Below, in pieces: positions 37,788-41,861 of a stretch of 57,014 nucleotides of DNA. Source of the DNA: Paludibacteraceae bacterium. Lineage in GTDB: Bacteria > Bacteroidota > Bacteroidia > Bacteroidales > Paludibacteraceae. How positions within the stretch are numbered: the first letter of the stretch is position 1; each line of letters starts with the position of its first letter. The notes under the pieces were generated by a model. That model was not told the DNA's origin. It did not search any database and was given only the letters and a program-made list of their open reading frames with translations. The DNA lies in assembly GCA_017558065.1 (NCBI GenBank), contig JAFYWK010000049.1, forward strand, positions 1 through 57,014, read 5' to 3'. Position numbers and translations under genes: made by a program.

Positions 37788-37819
37788 CTTGCACATATAC
37801 ATTTTTTTCACTACCTTTG
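37788..37819 (+). promoter_or_regulatory. Promoter of structured RNA gene
   Basis: CTTG (37788-37791), 20 nt, TACCTTTG (37812-37819). Transcription would begin a few bases on, at the AGCGCG that pairs with the RNA 3' end. Confidence 0.82.
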
Positions 37820-37820
37820 C

Positions 37821-38166
37821 AGCGCGAAACCCTACGAAGGGATGTCTGCGCATCGGCGGAGGGTTTTGCAGACATATTAAAAAGGCGTTTATTGCGCTCT
37901 GTTCTGACCTATTGGAATGTCGCAAGTTTCAAAATCTTATCAGGACTTAGCAACGATAGATGCCCTACGGGATATGAAATGTCCCTCTTGTGCCTATTAT
38001 GGTACGTCTTTTGCGTATATACGTATGCGCATATGCGTACCTTAACTATGTAGCACGGAGAATATTTATATTCGGCGTGGGCTTCGCGTTGTCGGTTCTA
38101 TAAGATTGGGCAATGCGACAGCCTCAATAGGTGGAACTGGCAAAAGGCAAGTTCCGCGCTTTTTTT
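37821..38166 (+). ncRNA. Structured noncoding RNA, about 340 nt, family unassigned
   Basis: A transcription unit with a consensus promoter and a terminator but no credible ORF. The ends pair: AGCGCG at 37821-37826 with CGCGCT at 38155-38160. Inside, ATGTCTGC pairs with GCAGACAT (about 37842-37875) around a loop whose AGGGT can pair with ACCCT just 5' of it, a likely pseudoknot. Other helices: GGTACG/CGTACC around 38000-38040 and CACGGAGAATAT with ATTCGGCGTG around 38056-38082. It lacks RNase P conserved blocks and the tmRNA ends. I cannot rule out a Rfam family that I do not recognise. A module CCCTACGGG of the dispersed-repeat type is included near 37963. Confidence 0.65.
38133..38166 (+). 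terminator. Terminator of structured RNA gene
   Basis: GGAACT pairs with AGTTCC, with GC/GC continuing after one mismatch and a 5-nt loop; GCGC and a seven-T run follow. The GCGC also closes the 5'-3' helix of the RNA. Confidence 0.78.
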
Positions 38167-38212
38167 GTACCCCTATTAGACGATAAGACTAATTAAACAA
38201 ACTATAAACACA

Positions 38213-39019
38213 ATGAAGAAACTATTATTATTGCTGCTTTTAGTAGCAGCGCAAATGACTCTTGTTGCTCAGGAGATGCCTCAATGGGTATTGCAGAAAC
38301 CACGCCCAGCCAACGACACGTATCTGTATGTAGTAGAACGCGGTGTAGGTGCCACTGAGATGGAAGCACGCAATCGTGCTATGGGATTGGTATATCGCAG
38401 TACCATTGAGCGTTTGGCATTGGCGATTGATTTAGCCAGTATCAATGCTGCTATATCTAATGGAAGCAACTATGGCGAAACTTCCGAGGCAATGAATGTG
38501 CCCGTGAATAAAGTGTGCGAATATGTACAACGCGAGGGCAGTCAGTATGTAGTATATGTATTGTGCCAAGTAGCGCAATATGGTAATGTTCCTGCTGTAT
38601 TTACCCCATTCACGCAATGCAACCAGTTAGCCAAGAGTCAATACATTGCTCATTCGTTTGTGCCTGGCTTGGCGCAGATAAAGAAAGGTAGCGTGGGTAA
38701 AGGTACTGCGTTTATCGTGAGCGAAGTGGTGTTGGTCGGTGGCGTAGTAGCAGCTGAATGTCTGCAACGCTACTATGCACAACAGATAAGCATGACGCAC
38801 AATAGCACCTTAAAACAACGCTATGCACAGAATGCGAATATCTGTCAGATTAGTCGCAATGTGGGCATAGGTTGTGTGGCAGCGGTGTATGTATGGAATG
38901 TGATAGATGGTATGGTGGCGAAGGGCAAGACACAAATACCATTGGGTACAGCTGAGTTGCGTTTAACGCCATACGCTGATTATGAGAGCGGCGGTGTAGC
39001 AGCGGTGGTGAATTTTTAA
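38213..39019 (+). CDS. Exported protein, DUF5683-like membrane part
   Basis: A 268-residue protein that I cannot assign to a characterised function. Signal peptide MKKLLLLLLLVAAQMTLVAQ. The next 100 residues (MPQWVLQKPRPANDTYLYVVERGVGATEMEARNR) resemble the LPP20-like fold in which repeated amphipathic strands follow a W-V-x-x-P start. From about residue 143 the segment SFVPGLAQIKKGSVGKGTAF followed by two hydrophobic helices is like membrane-anchor domains of the DUF5683 kind. It comes just downstream of the structured RNA terminator and no promoter of its own is visible. The hairpin repeat at 39020 starts at its stop codon. Confidence 0.72.
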   Translation: MKKLLLLLLLVAAQMTLVAQEMPQWVLQKPRPANDTYLYVVERGVGATEMEARNRAMGLVYRSTIERLALAIDLASINAAISNGSNYGETSEAMNVPVNKVCEYVQREGSQYVVYVLCQVAQYGNVPAVFTPFTQCNQLAKSQYIAHSFVPGLAQIKKGSVGKGTAFIVSEVVLVGGVVAAECLQRYYAQQISMTHNSTLKQRYAQNANICQISRNVGIGCVAAVYVWNVIDGMVAKGKTQIPLGTAELRLTPYADYESGGVAAVVNF

Positions 39020-39065
39020 GAAAACAACTTAAACAACTTGCGCGCCAATCAACTCTCTGGCGCGC
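39020..39065 (+). repeat. Leader-hairpin element, copy A
   Basis: Directly after a stop codon: leader AAAACAACTTAAACAACTT, stem GCGCGCCA (39040-39047), 10-nt loop, stem TGGCGCGC (39058-39065). The leader is a diverged version of copies B and C. Confidence 0.8.
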
Positions 39066-39084
39066 TACAAGGAATATATTCAAG

Positions 39085-39417
39085 ATGATGAAACGATTAG
39101 GTATTTGTGCCATGTTGATGGCGTTAGTAATGATGGTAGGGTGTGATCCTGTGACCTACGATGTATTTGCTACTATTTGCGGAACGGTAGTGAACTGCGA
39201 TACGATGGAACCATTAGAGGGCGTATCGGTGATACTCAGTCCTTCGGGAAAGAGTAAAATTACAGGTACGGACGGATATTTTGAGTTTGCAGAGGTAGAG
39301 GCGATGCAATATACGCTGACCGTACAGAAAGCGGGCTATAGCACCAACCGCAAGTCGGTCAATGCTATCGCTGGAGAGACAACGGATGTAACTATTACGA
39401 TGGATGTGAAGAAATAA
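39085..39417 (+). CDS. Small lipoprotein with carboxypeptidase regulatory-like domain
   Basis: A 110-residue protein. Lipoprotein signal MMKRLGICAMLMALVMMVGC; M1 or M2 may start. The mature part is one CarboxypepD_reg-like beta-sandwich: ICGTVVNCDTMEPLEGVSVILSP, TGTDGYFEFAEVEAMQYTLTVQKAGY. This is the same domain that opens the lipoprotein encoded next, and the two may have arisen by duplication. Probably on the cell envelope; function unknown. It lies between copies A and B of the leader-hairpin element. Confidence 0.82.
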   Translation: MMKRLGICAMLMALVMMVGCDPVTYDVFATICGTVVNCDTMEPLEGVSVILSPSGKSKITGTDGYFEFAEVEAMQYTLTVQKAGYSTNRKSVNAIAGETTDVTITMDVKK

Positions 39418-39460
39418 AGACAACACAAACAACATTTGCGCGAACCAACATTGTTCGCGC
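39416..39460 (+). repeat. Leader-hairpin element, copy B
   Basis: Leader GACAACACAAACAACATTT, stem GCGCGAAC (39438-39445), loop CAACATT, stem GTTCGCGC (39453-39460). It begins in the stop codon of the small lipoprotein gene. Confidence 0.85.
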
Positions 39461-39491
39461 TCAAAGTGAATAATAATTATAATACAAAGAT

Positions 39492-40778
39492 ATGAAAAAG
39501 ATTATTTATCTCTTTAACATAGTCCTTATATGTGGACTATATTCGTGTGAGAAATTACCAGGCAGTATTTATGGCGTGGTAGTAGAAAGTAGCAACACAG
39601 AACCATTAGCGGGGCTCGGAGTTGAACTATATCGTATTGGCGAGGAGCATAATTCATTATTGTTAAAAACAGTAACATTTGATGATGGTCACTTTGAGTT
39701 TACTGACCTAGAACCTGAAGAATATCTTATCAAGGTCATAGCAGAAGGCTATGATGAAGCATCAACTCAATATTATGTAATTGTTGAAGAAGGACGGCAA
39801 GCCAGAGTTGATATGCAAGTGATACTCAAATATACATACATGACAGTTGTCACAAACACTCCTCAAGTCAATGATAAAGATAGAGTTGTACAATTGTCTA
39901 TGACAGTAACCTGGTGGAGCGACGGCTGGGGAAACAAAAATGAATCCCCCCTTGAAAGAGGATTTCGATATGCTGCTCATAATCAGCCAATCTCTATGGG
40001 TACAGTTGTAAAATTACCTTCAAAATCATCTTCAATAGAATTACAAAATTTAGACGGTGGCACATATTATGTAGTTGCGTATGCCATCAATGAACACGGT
40101 ATTGCTTTTGGTGAAATGAAACAGTTTACTCTATCCGATAATCCTATAATAACAACGCTTGAACCATCAAATATTAGTTATACAACTGCATCCTATTCTG
40201 CAAGAATTGATTATTTAGGTTCTGCTCAAATAACAGAAAGAGGTTTCGTCTATTCTTCTACATTTCAAAATCCGACAATAGATGATTCTCCTTCTTTCAC
40301 TACGCGAAAAATAGTTTCTGGCACATCTACTGAATTTTCTGTCAATGTGAGCGACTTGATTAAAAACAACATATATTATGTTCGGGCTTATTTAACAACT
40401 ACCAAAGGCAGATATTATGGAGAAACAAAAAGTTTTAAAGCAACTCCATTTCAATTGCCAACATTTACATTTGGAGGTTCTTTATATTATGTCTCTCCTG
40501 ACCAAGGAGAAGCGACATGGAATGATGCTAAGAGCATATGTTCTAACTTAGTTTATGCAGATTATGCTGATTGGTATCTTCCTGACAAAGGAGAGTTAAA
40601 TGTAATGTACGAACAGAAATCATCCATAGGTGGCTTTTCCAGTACCTACTATTGGAGTAGTACGGAGAACAGTAGCGGCTACGCTTGGCGCCAGTATTTC
40701 GGCAATGGTGGTCAGTACGAAAATTACTACAATAAGAGCAGTACCTACCGTGTGCGTTGTGTCAGGAGAGAAAATTAA
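39492..40778 (+). CDS. Lipoprotein with C-terminal DUF1566/C-lectin-like domain, candidate DGR target
   Basis: A 428-residue protein. Lipoprotein signal ending LICGLYSC. Residues 25-110 are a CarboxypepD_reg-like domain (IYGVVVESSNTEPLAGLGV), then two fibronectin-type stretches (TTLEPSNISYTTASYSARID, ITERGFVYSS), then from about residue 325 a DUF1566-type domain (WNDAKSIC, ADWYLPDKGELNVMY, TYYWSSTEN, YRVRCVR). The last 45 codons switch sharply from AT-rich to codons of NNC type with many S/G/Y residues, flanked by constant WSSTE and RVRCVR. This is the appearance of a DGR variable region. No reverse transcriptase lies in the window. Without one it could be an ordinary DUF1566 adhesin. Confidence 0.82.
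   Translation: MKKIIYLFNIVLICGLYSCEKLPGSIYGVVVESSNTEPLAGLGVELYRIGEEHNSLLLKTVTFDDGHFEFTDLEPEEYLIKVIAEGYDEASTQYYVIVEEGRQARVDMQVILKYTYMTVVTNTPQVNDKDRVVQLSMTVTWWSDGWGNKNESPLERGFRYAAHNQPISMGTVVKLPSKSSSIELQNLDGGTYYVVAYAINEHGIAFGEMKQFTLSDNPIITTLEPSNISYTTASYSARIDYLGSAQITERGFVYSSTFQNPTIDDSPSFTTRKIVSGTSTEFSVNVSDLIKNNIYYVRAYLTTTKGRYYGETKSFKATPFQLPTFTFGGSLYYVSPDQGEATWNDAKSICSNLVYADYADWYLPDKGELNVMYEQKSSIGGFSSTYYWSSTENSSGYAWRQYFGNGGQYENYYNKSSTYRVRCVRREN
40641..40766 (+). other. Putative DGR variable region
   Basis: Codons between the constant WSSTEN and RVRCVR include AGC, GGC, TAC, CGC, TTC, GGC, TAC, TAC, AGC, ACC and TAC, nearly all ending in C, with the remaining AAT, AAG and AAC at interspersed sites. 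That is the outcome expected from mutation of adenines in AAC codons of a template repeat. The upstream 200 bases use TAT, GAT and TTT-type codons instead. No template repeat is in the window. Confidence 0.5.
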
Positions 40779-40792
40779 CTATTTAACTATTA

Positions 40793-40844
40793 CCGCCGTA
40801 GGCGGTCGATTGTTAAGGAAGTGGGTGAAACGCCCACTTCCTTA
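40793..40844. repeat. Tandem inverted repeats downstream of putative variable region
   Basis: CCGCC-GTA-GGCGG at 40793-40805, then a 12-bp stem TAAGGAAGTGGG/CCCACTTCCTTA at 40814-40844 with a 7-nt loop containing GAAA. Neither is followed by a T-run on its 3' side on either strand, so it is not a normal intrinsic terminator. DGR targets often carry such a hairpin after the variable region. Confidence 0.7.
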
Positions 40845-41024
40845 TAAAAAATAGCCTACATTTTGCGATTTGCGAGCAAACCTGATTTTCGCATACTTTA
40901 GTGGCGAAATTAAACAAAAAATCATCAATTCCGCTATCTGTTTACCGAAACAGCAAGCGAAATTAAACGAAAAAGTGTCAATTTTGTCACTTGTTTCTTG
41001 CGTAATTGAAAGCAAAGTATATTT

Positions 41025-41861
41025 GTGAAAATTTATTTTCTGCATATAGTATCACTTGTCTGTGGATTATTGCCGACCAATAGCCCTATTGCCGCACAAG
41101 TCCTGCTGCCACAGTATTCCGTGTGGGAAGGATTTGCGTTTGAAAATAAACAAACAGTAGAATCCCGCGAAGCGGAAGAACGCTTTGCGCGATTCTTATT
41201 GCACATAGCCCAGCAAACTTCCGCCCAACAAATAGAGCAGATTGGTGAGTTGCTAACCAAAGCAGAGCAAAATGATGCTACTGCGCGCTTTCTCACATTG
41301 GCAGAGAAATACCTCTATGACCCCAACTCGCCCTATCGCAACGATGAACGGTATTTGCTATTCTTGCAATATGCAGCCACGCATCAATTTGCGGATTACA
41401 CCACCAATCCGCGCTACCAAAAGCATTACACGATGGTGCAGAAAAATCGTGTAGGCATGCCTGCTGCGGATTTCCCTTTCACAACCCAAGCAGGCGAGGA
41501 AGGGCATTTATATGGCGTACAAAGCCCATATATTCTACTCTTTTTCCACGATCCAAATTGCGAGGAGTGTCAGTGGGTAAAACAACAACTAGAGAGCCAA
41601 CACGCTCATTTTGCGCAGAAAGGGGTGCAAGTGGTGGCGGTGTATATTGACGATGAGATAGAAGCGTGGAAAAGCGCATCCTATCCCTCTGCATGGCTCA
41701 GCGTATATGCGCCAGAGATAGACCAGCAAGACCTATACGACATAAAAGCATTGCCCACATTATACCTTTTGGACACGCAAAAATGCGTACTACTAAAAGA
41801 TGTGCGATTAGAGGATGTCATAAACCATAGAAGAACGTCCGTGGAAAGTCCGTGGGAGTAA
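41025..41861 (+). CDS. Thioredoxin-like exported protein (DUF5106 type)
   Basis: A 278-residue protein. Start GTG at 41025; the first 26 residues (KIYFLHIVSLVCGLLPTNSPIAAQ) are a signal peptide. The middle (FARFLLHIAQQTSAQQIEQIGELL, YLYDPNSPYRNDERY) fits the DUF5106 helical domain that precedes thioredoxin folds in Bacteroidales. The thioredoxin part has HDPNCEECQWVKQQL with the redox CxxC as CEEC and ALPTLYLLD with the cis-proline. The likely role is periplasmic thiol-disulfide exchange. Nearby secreted cysteine-containing lipoproteins are possible clients. No promoter with correct spacing is seen upstream. Confidence 0.83.
   Translation: MKIYFLHIVSLVCGLLPTNSPIAAQVLLPQYSVWEGFAFENKQTVESREAEERFARFLLHIAQQTSAQQIEQIGELLTKAEQNDATARFLTLAEKYLYDPNSPYRNDERYLLFLQYAATHQFADYTTNPRYQKHYTMVQKNRVGMPAADFPFTTQAGEEGHLYGVQSPYILLFFHDPNCEECQWVKQQLESQHAHFAQKGVQVVAVYIDDEIEAWKSASYPSAWLSVYAPEIDQQDLYDIKALPTLYLLDTQKCVLLKDVRLEDVINHRRTSVESPWE

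Follow-up and report, generated by a model that had tools for sequence, protein, structure and literature searches.

A putative DGR variable region at the 3' end of a Paludibacteraceae lipoprotein gene and a candidate target-site hairpin behind it

Described DGR targets

In human microbiome data a usual type of DGR target carries a DUF1566 domain (PMC4159848). Like the lipoprotein described here, the targets in that report have a C-terminal DUF1566 and a variable region (VR) at the gene end, and one target, whose Fib_succ_major domain is of a similar kind, is predicted to be a lipoprotein (PMC4159848). They differ in that they were detected as template/VR pairs, whereas the lipoprotein tail of the present locus is one for which no template was found. 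In Treponema denticola, DGR targets are distant from the core or occur in isolates without reverse transcriptase (RT) and template, and lipoprotein signals are found in 62% of target genes (PMC4891356). Orphan and remote DGR targets are already on record (PMC4891356), and so is DGR action in trans (PMC10907252). The T. denticola VRs are comparable with templates of the same species (PMC4891356), whereas the present tail is compared with templates from other families only.

In BPP-1, a hairpin behind the VR is needed for efficient homing (PMC3240598). The present locus is similar in having a GC-rich hairpin soon after the VR, at 40792-40806. However, the hairpins described for phage DGRs have stems of 7-10 bp and 4-nt GRNA loops (PMC3240598), whereas a 6-bp stem and a 3-nt loop are found here.

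The lipoprotein gene

The window, i.e., the whole stretch of DNA that was analysed, is 57,014 nt in length and comprises an entire contig (G000:C59:1-57014) of a Paludibacteraceae assembly (G000) that is 94.48% complete. The gene under study and its parts are as follows.

39492..40778, + strand: lipoprotein gene, 428 aa, intact frame (translation and Pfam)
N-terminal: lipobox-like LYSC signal of the lipoprotein gene (by eye)
residues 25-109: CarboxypepD_reg domain (Pfam)
also in the gene: two Fn3-like repeats (by eye; Pfam gave neither a score)
residues 338-425 = 40503..40766, + strand: Lcl_C (DUF1566) domain (Pfam), C-type lectin fold in the model
40641..40748, + strand: putative DGR variable region (codon pattern and template comparison)

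An earlier note on this DNA had proposed a signal, two fibronectin-like parts and a DUF1566 end. The DUF1566 end is confirmed by Pfam; the signal and the two fibronectin-like parts are seen by eye only. The constant WSSTEN and RVRCVR that were said to flank the tail are both present in the translation. The predicted structure of the DUF1566 end models as a C-type lectin fold, which would place the VR in a C-terminal C-type-lectin-like domain. A VIA-align structure comparison relates the domain to the Lcl C-terminal domain (8q4e), and the likeness is one of fold, which indicates neither function nor DGR history.

Codon usage at the gene end

The same note described an abrupt break in codon usage at 40641-40766. 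The break is found there: the tail has a GC content of 0.48 and the gene body 0.36. The third base is C in 35.6% and G or C in 55.6% of the 45 codons that run from 40641 up to the stop, compared with 14.4% and 24.8%, respectively, of the preceding 383. Among 42-codon stretches lying entirely upstream of 40641, C-ending codons average 13.8% and reach a maximum of 28.6%; the final five stretches listed, which cover the tail, have 33-40%. The statement that most codons end in C was too strong, as only 16 of the 45 do so. The actual pattern is C or T at the third base (35 of the 47 codons listed), and it has no exception in the tail columns aligned with AAY codons of the templates (16/16).

Comparison with templates of other families

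Relatives of the tail (E <= 1e-4) were found in 90 of the 393 genomes searched in the order, and several adjoin a template with a reading like NNNNNAW.QNF.NGNQNNNNKNN. The reference set consists of eight DUF1566-type templates, which come from six genomes (G048 contributes three) and all belong to families other than that of the source. An A-biased template/VR pair was flagged by script for five of the eight; the N-rich reading identified the templates of G040, G508 and G048c, two of which (G040, G048c) are also matched by their VRs in blastn. The lipoprotein tail exceeds the eight templates in length by two codons, and one tail codon inside this insertion is GAA. The gap position was optimised in the comparisons of non-A identity, including the best core match, and in those of third bases with a fixed protein, including the wider run.

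At template non-A sites, identity of the tail to the eight templates is 0.53-0.74. Four same-genus tails show 0.32-0.57 and the lipoprotein tail is higher for each of the eight templates, while VRs of other DGRs show 0.56-0.94. The best core match, to a bacterial template of another family, is at 52 of 63 non-A sites (0.83); full agreement at non-A sites was not seen with any template found.

A further comparison is at third bases, with the protein held fixed. The tail agrees with the templates at 26.6 third bases against 15.2 +- 2.0 expected from the codon use of the window (z 5.7, 0/1000), and against 12.3 +- 1.9 from that of its own gene body (z 7.5, 0/1000). Four template-paired VRs give z values of 3.5-6.8 in this test, and the tail at the syntenic locus of the same-genus genome G025 gives 3.6. 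Six other same-genus tails give -1.1 to 0.3, and 0.1 to 1.7 when the codon use of the lipoprotein gene body is applied. In a wider run the lipoprotein tail ranks 22nd of 82 rows, which include templates matching the script's pattern, and some same-genus tails ending in SVRLV likewise attain z 4.

When C and T third bases were shuffled inside the lipoprotein tail, the observed value was attained in 1 of 5000 trials, and the match therefore goes beyond mere GC content. For template-paired VRs the same shuffle gave 0/2000 in three cases and 160/2000 for G040; this test is thus not uniform, since a template-paired VR can be unexceptional in it. The G025 tail gave 0/2000 and three other same-genus tails gave 660-1136/2000. 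With respect to the 16 AAY columns, four paired VRs have 15-16 pyrimidine-ending codons, the number that the lipoprotein tail also reaches, and four same-genus tails have 9-11, G025 being at 11.

These results support a DGR footprint at the DNA level in the tail, one that exceeds protein similarity and GC content. A direct contrast of the lipoprotein and G025 tails (identity at 21/46 template-A sites vs 50/65 other sites, Fisher p 0.0012) was set aside, because pairs of tails that have no footprint behave alike, e.g., G185/G103 (one-sided p 0.0004).

Constant 3' end and post-stop hairpin

Three elements are found at and behind the end of the gene.

40749..40785, + strand: constant 3' coding end and first post-stop bases; candidate IMH (initiation of mutagenic homing)
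40792..40806, + strand: hairpin ACCGCC-GTA-GGCGGT, 13 nt behind the stop codon; candidate target-site hairpin of a DGR
40814..40844, + strand: second, longer inverted repeat, terminator-like (DNA fold)

Of the whole tail, it is this first element that blastn matches, in three same-genus loci (G185, G025, G103) with 85-92% identity. The 13-nt core of the hairpin has a single match in the window at <=1 mismatch, with a shuffled expectation of 0.01. The DNA fold of the entire 40779-40850 region has a z of -6.6, and a similar second repeat is visible in G025 and G185. The hairpin or potential cruciform at 40792-40806 is downstream of the putative VR, and it recurs behind related VR-like tails.

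The bacterial DNA fetched, which amounts to 607,024 bases with the window, contains 12 ACCGC-N(3-5)-GCGGT sites, and 10 of these sit <=80 nt past the stop of a VR-like tail. Their density rather than their count is what matters, because the stretches were chosen around such tails. An automatic count of GC hairpins was made for 68 bacterial tails, with the hairpin <=45 nt from the stop and with three cut-offs for the footprint z. A GC hairpin follows 19 of 34 tails at z >= 3.0 vs 1 of 34 below, the one being the syntenic G185 tail. The figures are 17/31 vs 3/37 at a cut-off of 3.5, and 14/26 vs 6/42 at 4.0. Within the class of tails ending in VR[AC][VI] the contrast is weaker but persists (17/29 vs 1/14 at 3.0; 14/24 vs 4/19 at 4.0). 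Baselines are 0/30 for genes of the window and 83/2000 for random bacterial stretches. The automatic count replaces an earlier hand-grouped one (16 of 27 rows, with one spurious row among them, vs 2/20). The tail at L084, with a z of about 4, has no hairpin; this tail and some other classes were absent from the hand-grouped count. For phages a link to the hairpin is not shown, since a GC hairpin follows 10 of 52 phage tails as compared with 264 of 2000 random phage stretches.

Many VR-like DUF1566 tails encoded on chromosomes have a recurring element past the stop, in which an AT-rich, TATTTAAC-like lead precedes ACCGC-N3-GCGGT. It is present at L079, L080, L088, L108, L110, L115, L119, L126, L127 and other loci, and spans several families of the order. 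In the part of the literature covered, no description of an ACCGC-N3-GCGGTCGA hairpin was met. A sequence with a consensus near ACCGC-N3-GCGGTCGA may be put forward as a candidate target-site hairpin for chromosomal DUF1566 tails of the order.

Search for a template and the resident DGR

Blastn searches of the assembly with the tail and with a longer stretch, and a protein search, revealed no template for the lipoprotein tail; the only significant match was the tail itself. At E <= 10 the tail search gives five other matches of 14-26 nt. A compatibility scan of contig C83 and of the window found no compatible template site. As a control, eight VRs of relatives were run by local blastn, and each recovered the template it belongs to, with E values of 8e-24 to 1e-41 (database size 4.9 Mb, with a program not identical to that of the assembly search). 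As a protein query the tail also reaches templates in other genomes, e.g., G048:C483:313-447 (E 7.8e-8). The searches should thus have revealed a same-class template if the assembled part contained one. As the assembly is 94.48% complete, this is not the absence from a complete genome that the earlier note had named as counting against a DGR target.

The note had further stated that no RT lies within 16 kb downstream or 40 kb upstream. These distances are set by the contig, which is the window, and one RT match is found elsewhere in the assembly. It is the sole RVT_1 match (C83:18067-18603), in a 337-aa open reading frame that contains LPIGNLTSQ and is preceded by an HRDC-domain open reading frame. 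We take LPIGNLTSQ to be of the DGR-type RT motif class. Neither NCBIfam nor PADLOC gave a match to a DGR-specific model. The parts of this resident DGR are:

C83:18848-18991: template, 144 nt
C83:17131-17274: local VR, in an FGE-sulfatase gene (locus L002 = C83:17131-18991)
C5:63022-63165: remote VR, in a PEGA/FGE-sulfatase gene (L096)

Each of the two VRs has 17 differences from the template over 136 nt, and 17/17 are at a template A. The assembly thus contains a DGR with a remote target. Its RT is 97% identical to an RT of another genome of the genus, G082. Similarities to what is proposed for the lipoprotein tail are the common assembly, A-specific variation and the possession of one remote VR besides a local one; differences are the FGE-sulfatase class, the HRDC-domain open reading frame ahead of the RT, and a template unrelated to the lipoprotein tail. 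The genome therefore has a DGR-type RT with a template and two VRs, yet these are tied to another template. Of the two partners sought for the tail, an RT was found, one that serves a different template, and no template for the tail was found.

DGRs elsewhere in the genus

The resident RT used as query has matches (E <= 1e-10) in 17 of 178 same-genus genomes, its own included. Fifteen stretches at RT loci were examined, from 12 of the 16 other RT-bearing genomes; G118, G119, G124 and G076 and the second loci of G117 and G008 were left out. A-biased pairs occur in eight of the 15 stretches: one is of the FGE-sulfatase type (G082), one is unlike the others (G158), and six are DUF1566-like (G025, G074, G080, G123, G117, G062), of classes that differ from that of the lipoprotein tail. 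No template of the tail's class was found at these loci (15 stretches, 12 genomes). A search with the tail in the 178 same-genus genomes gave no short-frame N-rich match like those in G048 and G040; three odd rows were inspected.

A hypervariable lipoprotein slot

The lipoprotein gene lies between two regions that are conserved in related genomes.

37812..39474, + strand: upstream flank, 85% identical in G025 (blastn), ending 18 bp ahead of the gene
41025..41861, + strand: downstream gene, DUF5106 + thioredoxin-like, DNA 80-88% identical in G025, G185 and G103

In G185 the upstream flank is matched piecewise (68-95%) and in G103 as a single piece (90%), and the downstream gene is present in seven of 178 same-genus genomes, its own included. 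For the lipoprotein gene itself, at 39492-40748, blastn finds no counterpart in the syntenic DNA of G025, G185 and G103. Matches resume at the last ~30 nt of the gene and the post-stop region, and the syntenic genes likewise end with a DUF1566-type tail. With matching flanks and an unmatched body, the slot therefore houses different lipoproteins with a common end. The three related genomes have one or two extra open reading frames between the lipoprotein and the downstream gene. The hypervariable slot can be seen when window positions 37812-41861 are set against L089, L133 and L134. A paralogue of the downstream gene, 89% identical, is found on contig C53 of the same assembly (G000:C53:128570-129396, L097), where it adjoins a cluster of related lipoproteins, one of which is 63% identical in its N-terminal part to the lipoprotein described here.

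Origin of the footprint

The last ~40 codons of the lipoprotein gene are, with a probability of about 0.85, a VR written by a DGR. By the proposed mechanism, a template repeat rich in AAC/AAT would be copied into RNA and the copy reverse-transcribed, with random bases placed at template adenines. The cDNA would then take the place of the lipoprotein gene's own 3' end, with the constant sequence there and the post-stop hairpin as anchors, and rewriting would alter part of the C-type-lectin-like DUF1566 domain. The lipoprotein is probably exposed at the cell surface, and the rewritten domain may bind a ligand. The DGR reading of the earlier note thus stands with respect to the footprint, the hairpin, the lectin-fold model and the usual target domain, but the view that the tail is a working remote target of a DGR in this genome is not supported. 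The tail is not classed as part of a complete DGR, because a matching template was sought and not found. Besides the lack of a template in the assembly and at the genus loci covered, the points that speak against a VR are the incomplete non-A agreement with every template found, the two extra codons and the GAA among them, the unexceptional G040 VR in the shuffle, and the z of 4 in some same-genus SVRLV tails. The partner template and RT might be unassembled, lie just past the contig end, or have been lost recently; recent writing is favoured because the footprint shows no decay towards the AT-rich codons that the gene otherwise uses.

Among the accounts of what became of the writer, the one that fares best, at somewhat under even odds, is that the writer's template and RT were lost from the lineage, and that the tail is now subject to ordinary coding evolution. 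It accords with the lack of a template in the assembly, and such orphan targets have been reported in T. denticola (PMC4891356). The G025 tail, with its weaker footprint (z 3.6, 11/16 NNY), and G185, which has a hairpin but no footprint, look as decay would make them. Against this, all 16 AAY columns of the lipoprotein tail still end in C or T in an AT-rich gene, and any loss of the partner would therefore be recent.

Next in order, and still a tentative proposal, the tail could be a remote target of a DGR that is active in the strain and whose template and RT lie in the ~5.5% that is unassembled or past the contig end. The footprint looks fresh, the genome already has one remote VR (that of the resident DGR on C5), and the contig stops 16 kb downstream of the lipoprotein tail. 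Genome bins may also lose mobile DNA. On the other hand, the missing part is only ~5.5% by the completeness estimate, and no short-frame N-rich match was noticed in the 178 same-genus genomes.

A more elaborate and rather doubtful view is that the conserved 3' end and hairpin constitute an acceptor that is portable, in a lipoprotein slot that is hypervariable. The body would swap between species, and a DGR elsewhere would write the tail in trans. The machinery might be mobile or reside in other strains, and act from time to time. If so, cells that have no template would still carry freshly diversified binding sites.

It is improbable that tail and footprint were acquired by recombination from the DGR target of another bacterium, at a locus that was never a homing site. 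The unmatched 39492-40748 between matching flanks fits such a transfer, as does the 63% identity of residues 11-114 to the lipoprotein paralogue on C53 of the same assembly. However, the 3' end is common to three same-genus loci and the hairpin to two of those, and a transfer would therefore have to stop just before both. Less probable again is that no DGR was ever involved and that the domain is an ordinary one whose codons are C-rich locally. Residues in common with DGR targets are found in DUF1566 domains both with and without a DGR, and six other same-genus tails have no footprint, but the nulls that hold protein or C/T composition fixed disfavour this explanation, as does the association of the hairpin with footprint tails. 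That the resident DGR on C83 diversifies the tail is hardly credible: its RT is the only RT match in the assembly, but its template, rejected as the writer, encodes an FGE-sulfatase tail with no match to the lipoprotein tail, and an ungapped template-compatibility scan leaves at least 46 of 138 bases incompatible everywhere on C83.

As the analysis suggests, comparing synonymous third bases with templates of distant relatives can reveal a DGR-written tail whose own template is missing. If template-less targets are common, counts based on RT-linked VRs are too low; the same remark on undercounting is made in PMC8144416 for remote targets.

Templates and tails in phages

Phage records contain no DNA match to the tail and one weak protein match. 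The IMG/VR scans covered three loci and then the best 80 of 289 confirmed loci; the best phage template among these agrees with the tail at 0.76 of non-A sites. A viral contig, L229, has a template with the RVRCVR ending, and the L240 template, which has the same protein reading as L229, shows 0.76 non-A agreement vs 0.83 for the best bacterial template. At L220 (G117:C81), a DGR with a YWSSTE..LVRAFC target is found among phage-like open reading frames, one of which is terminase-like by eye.
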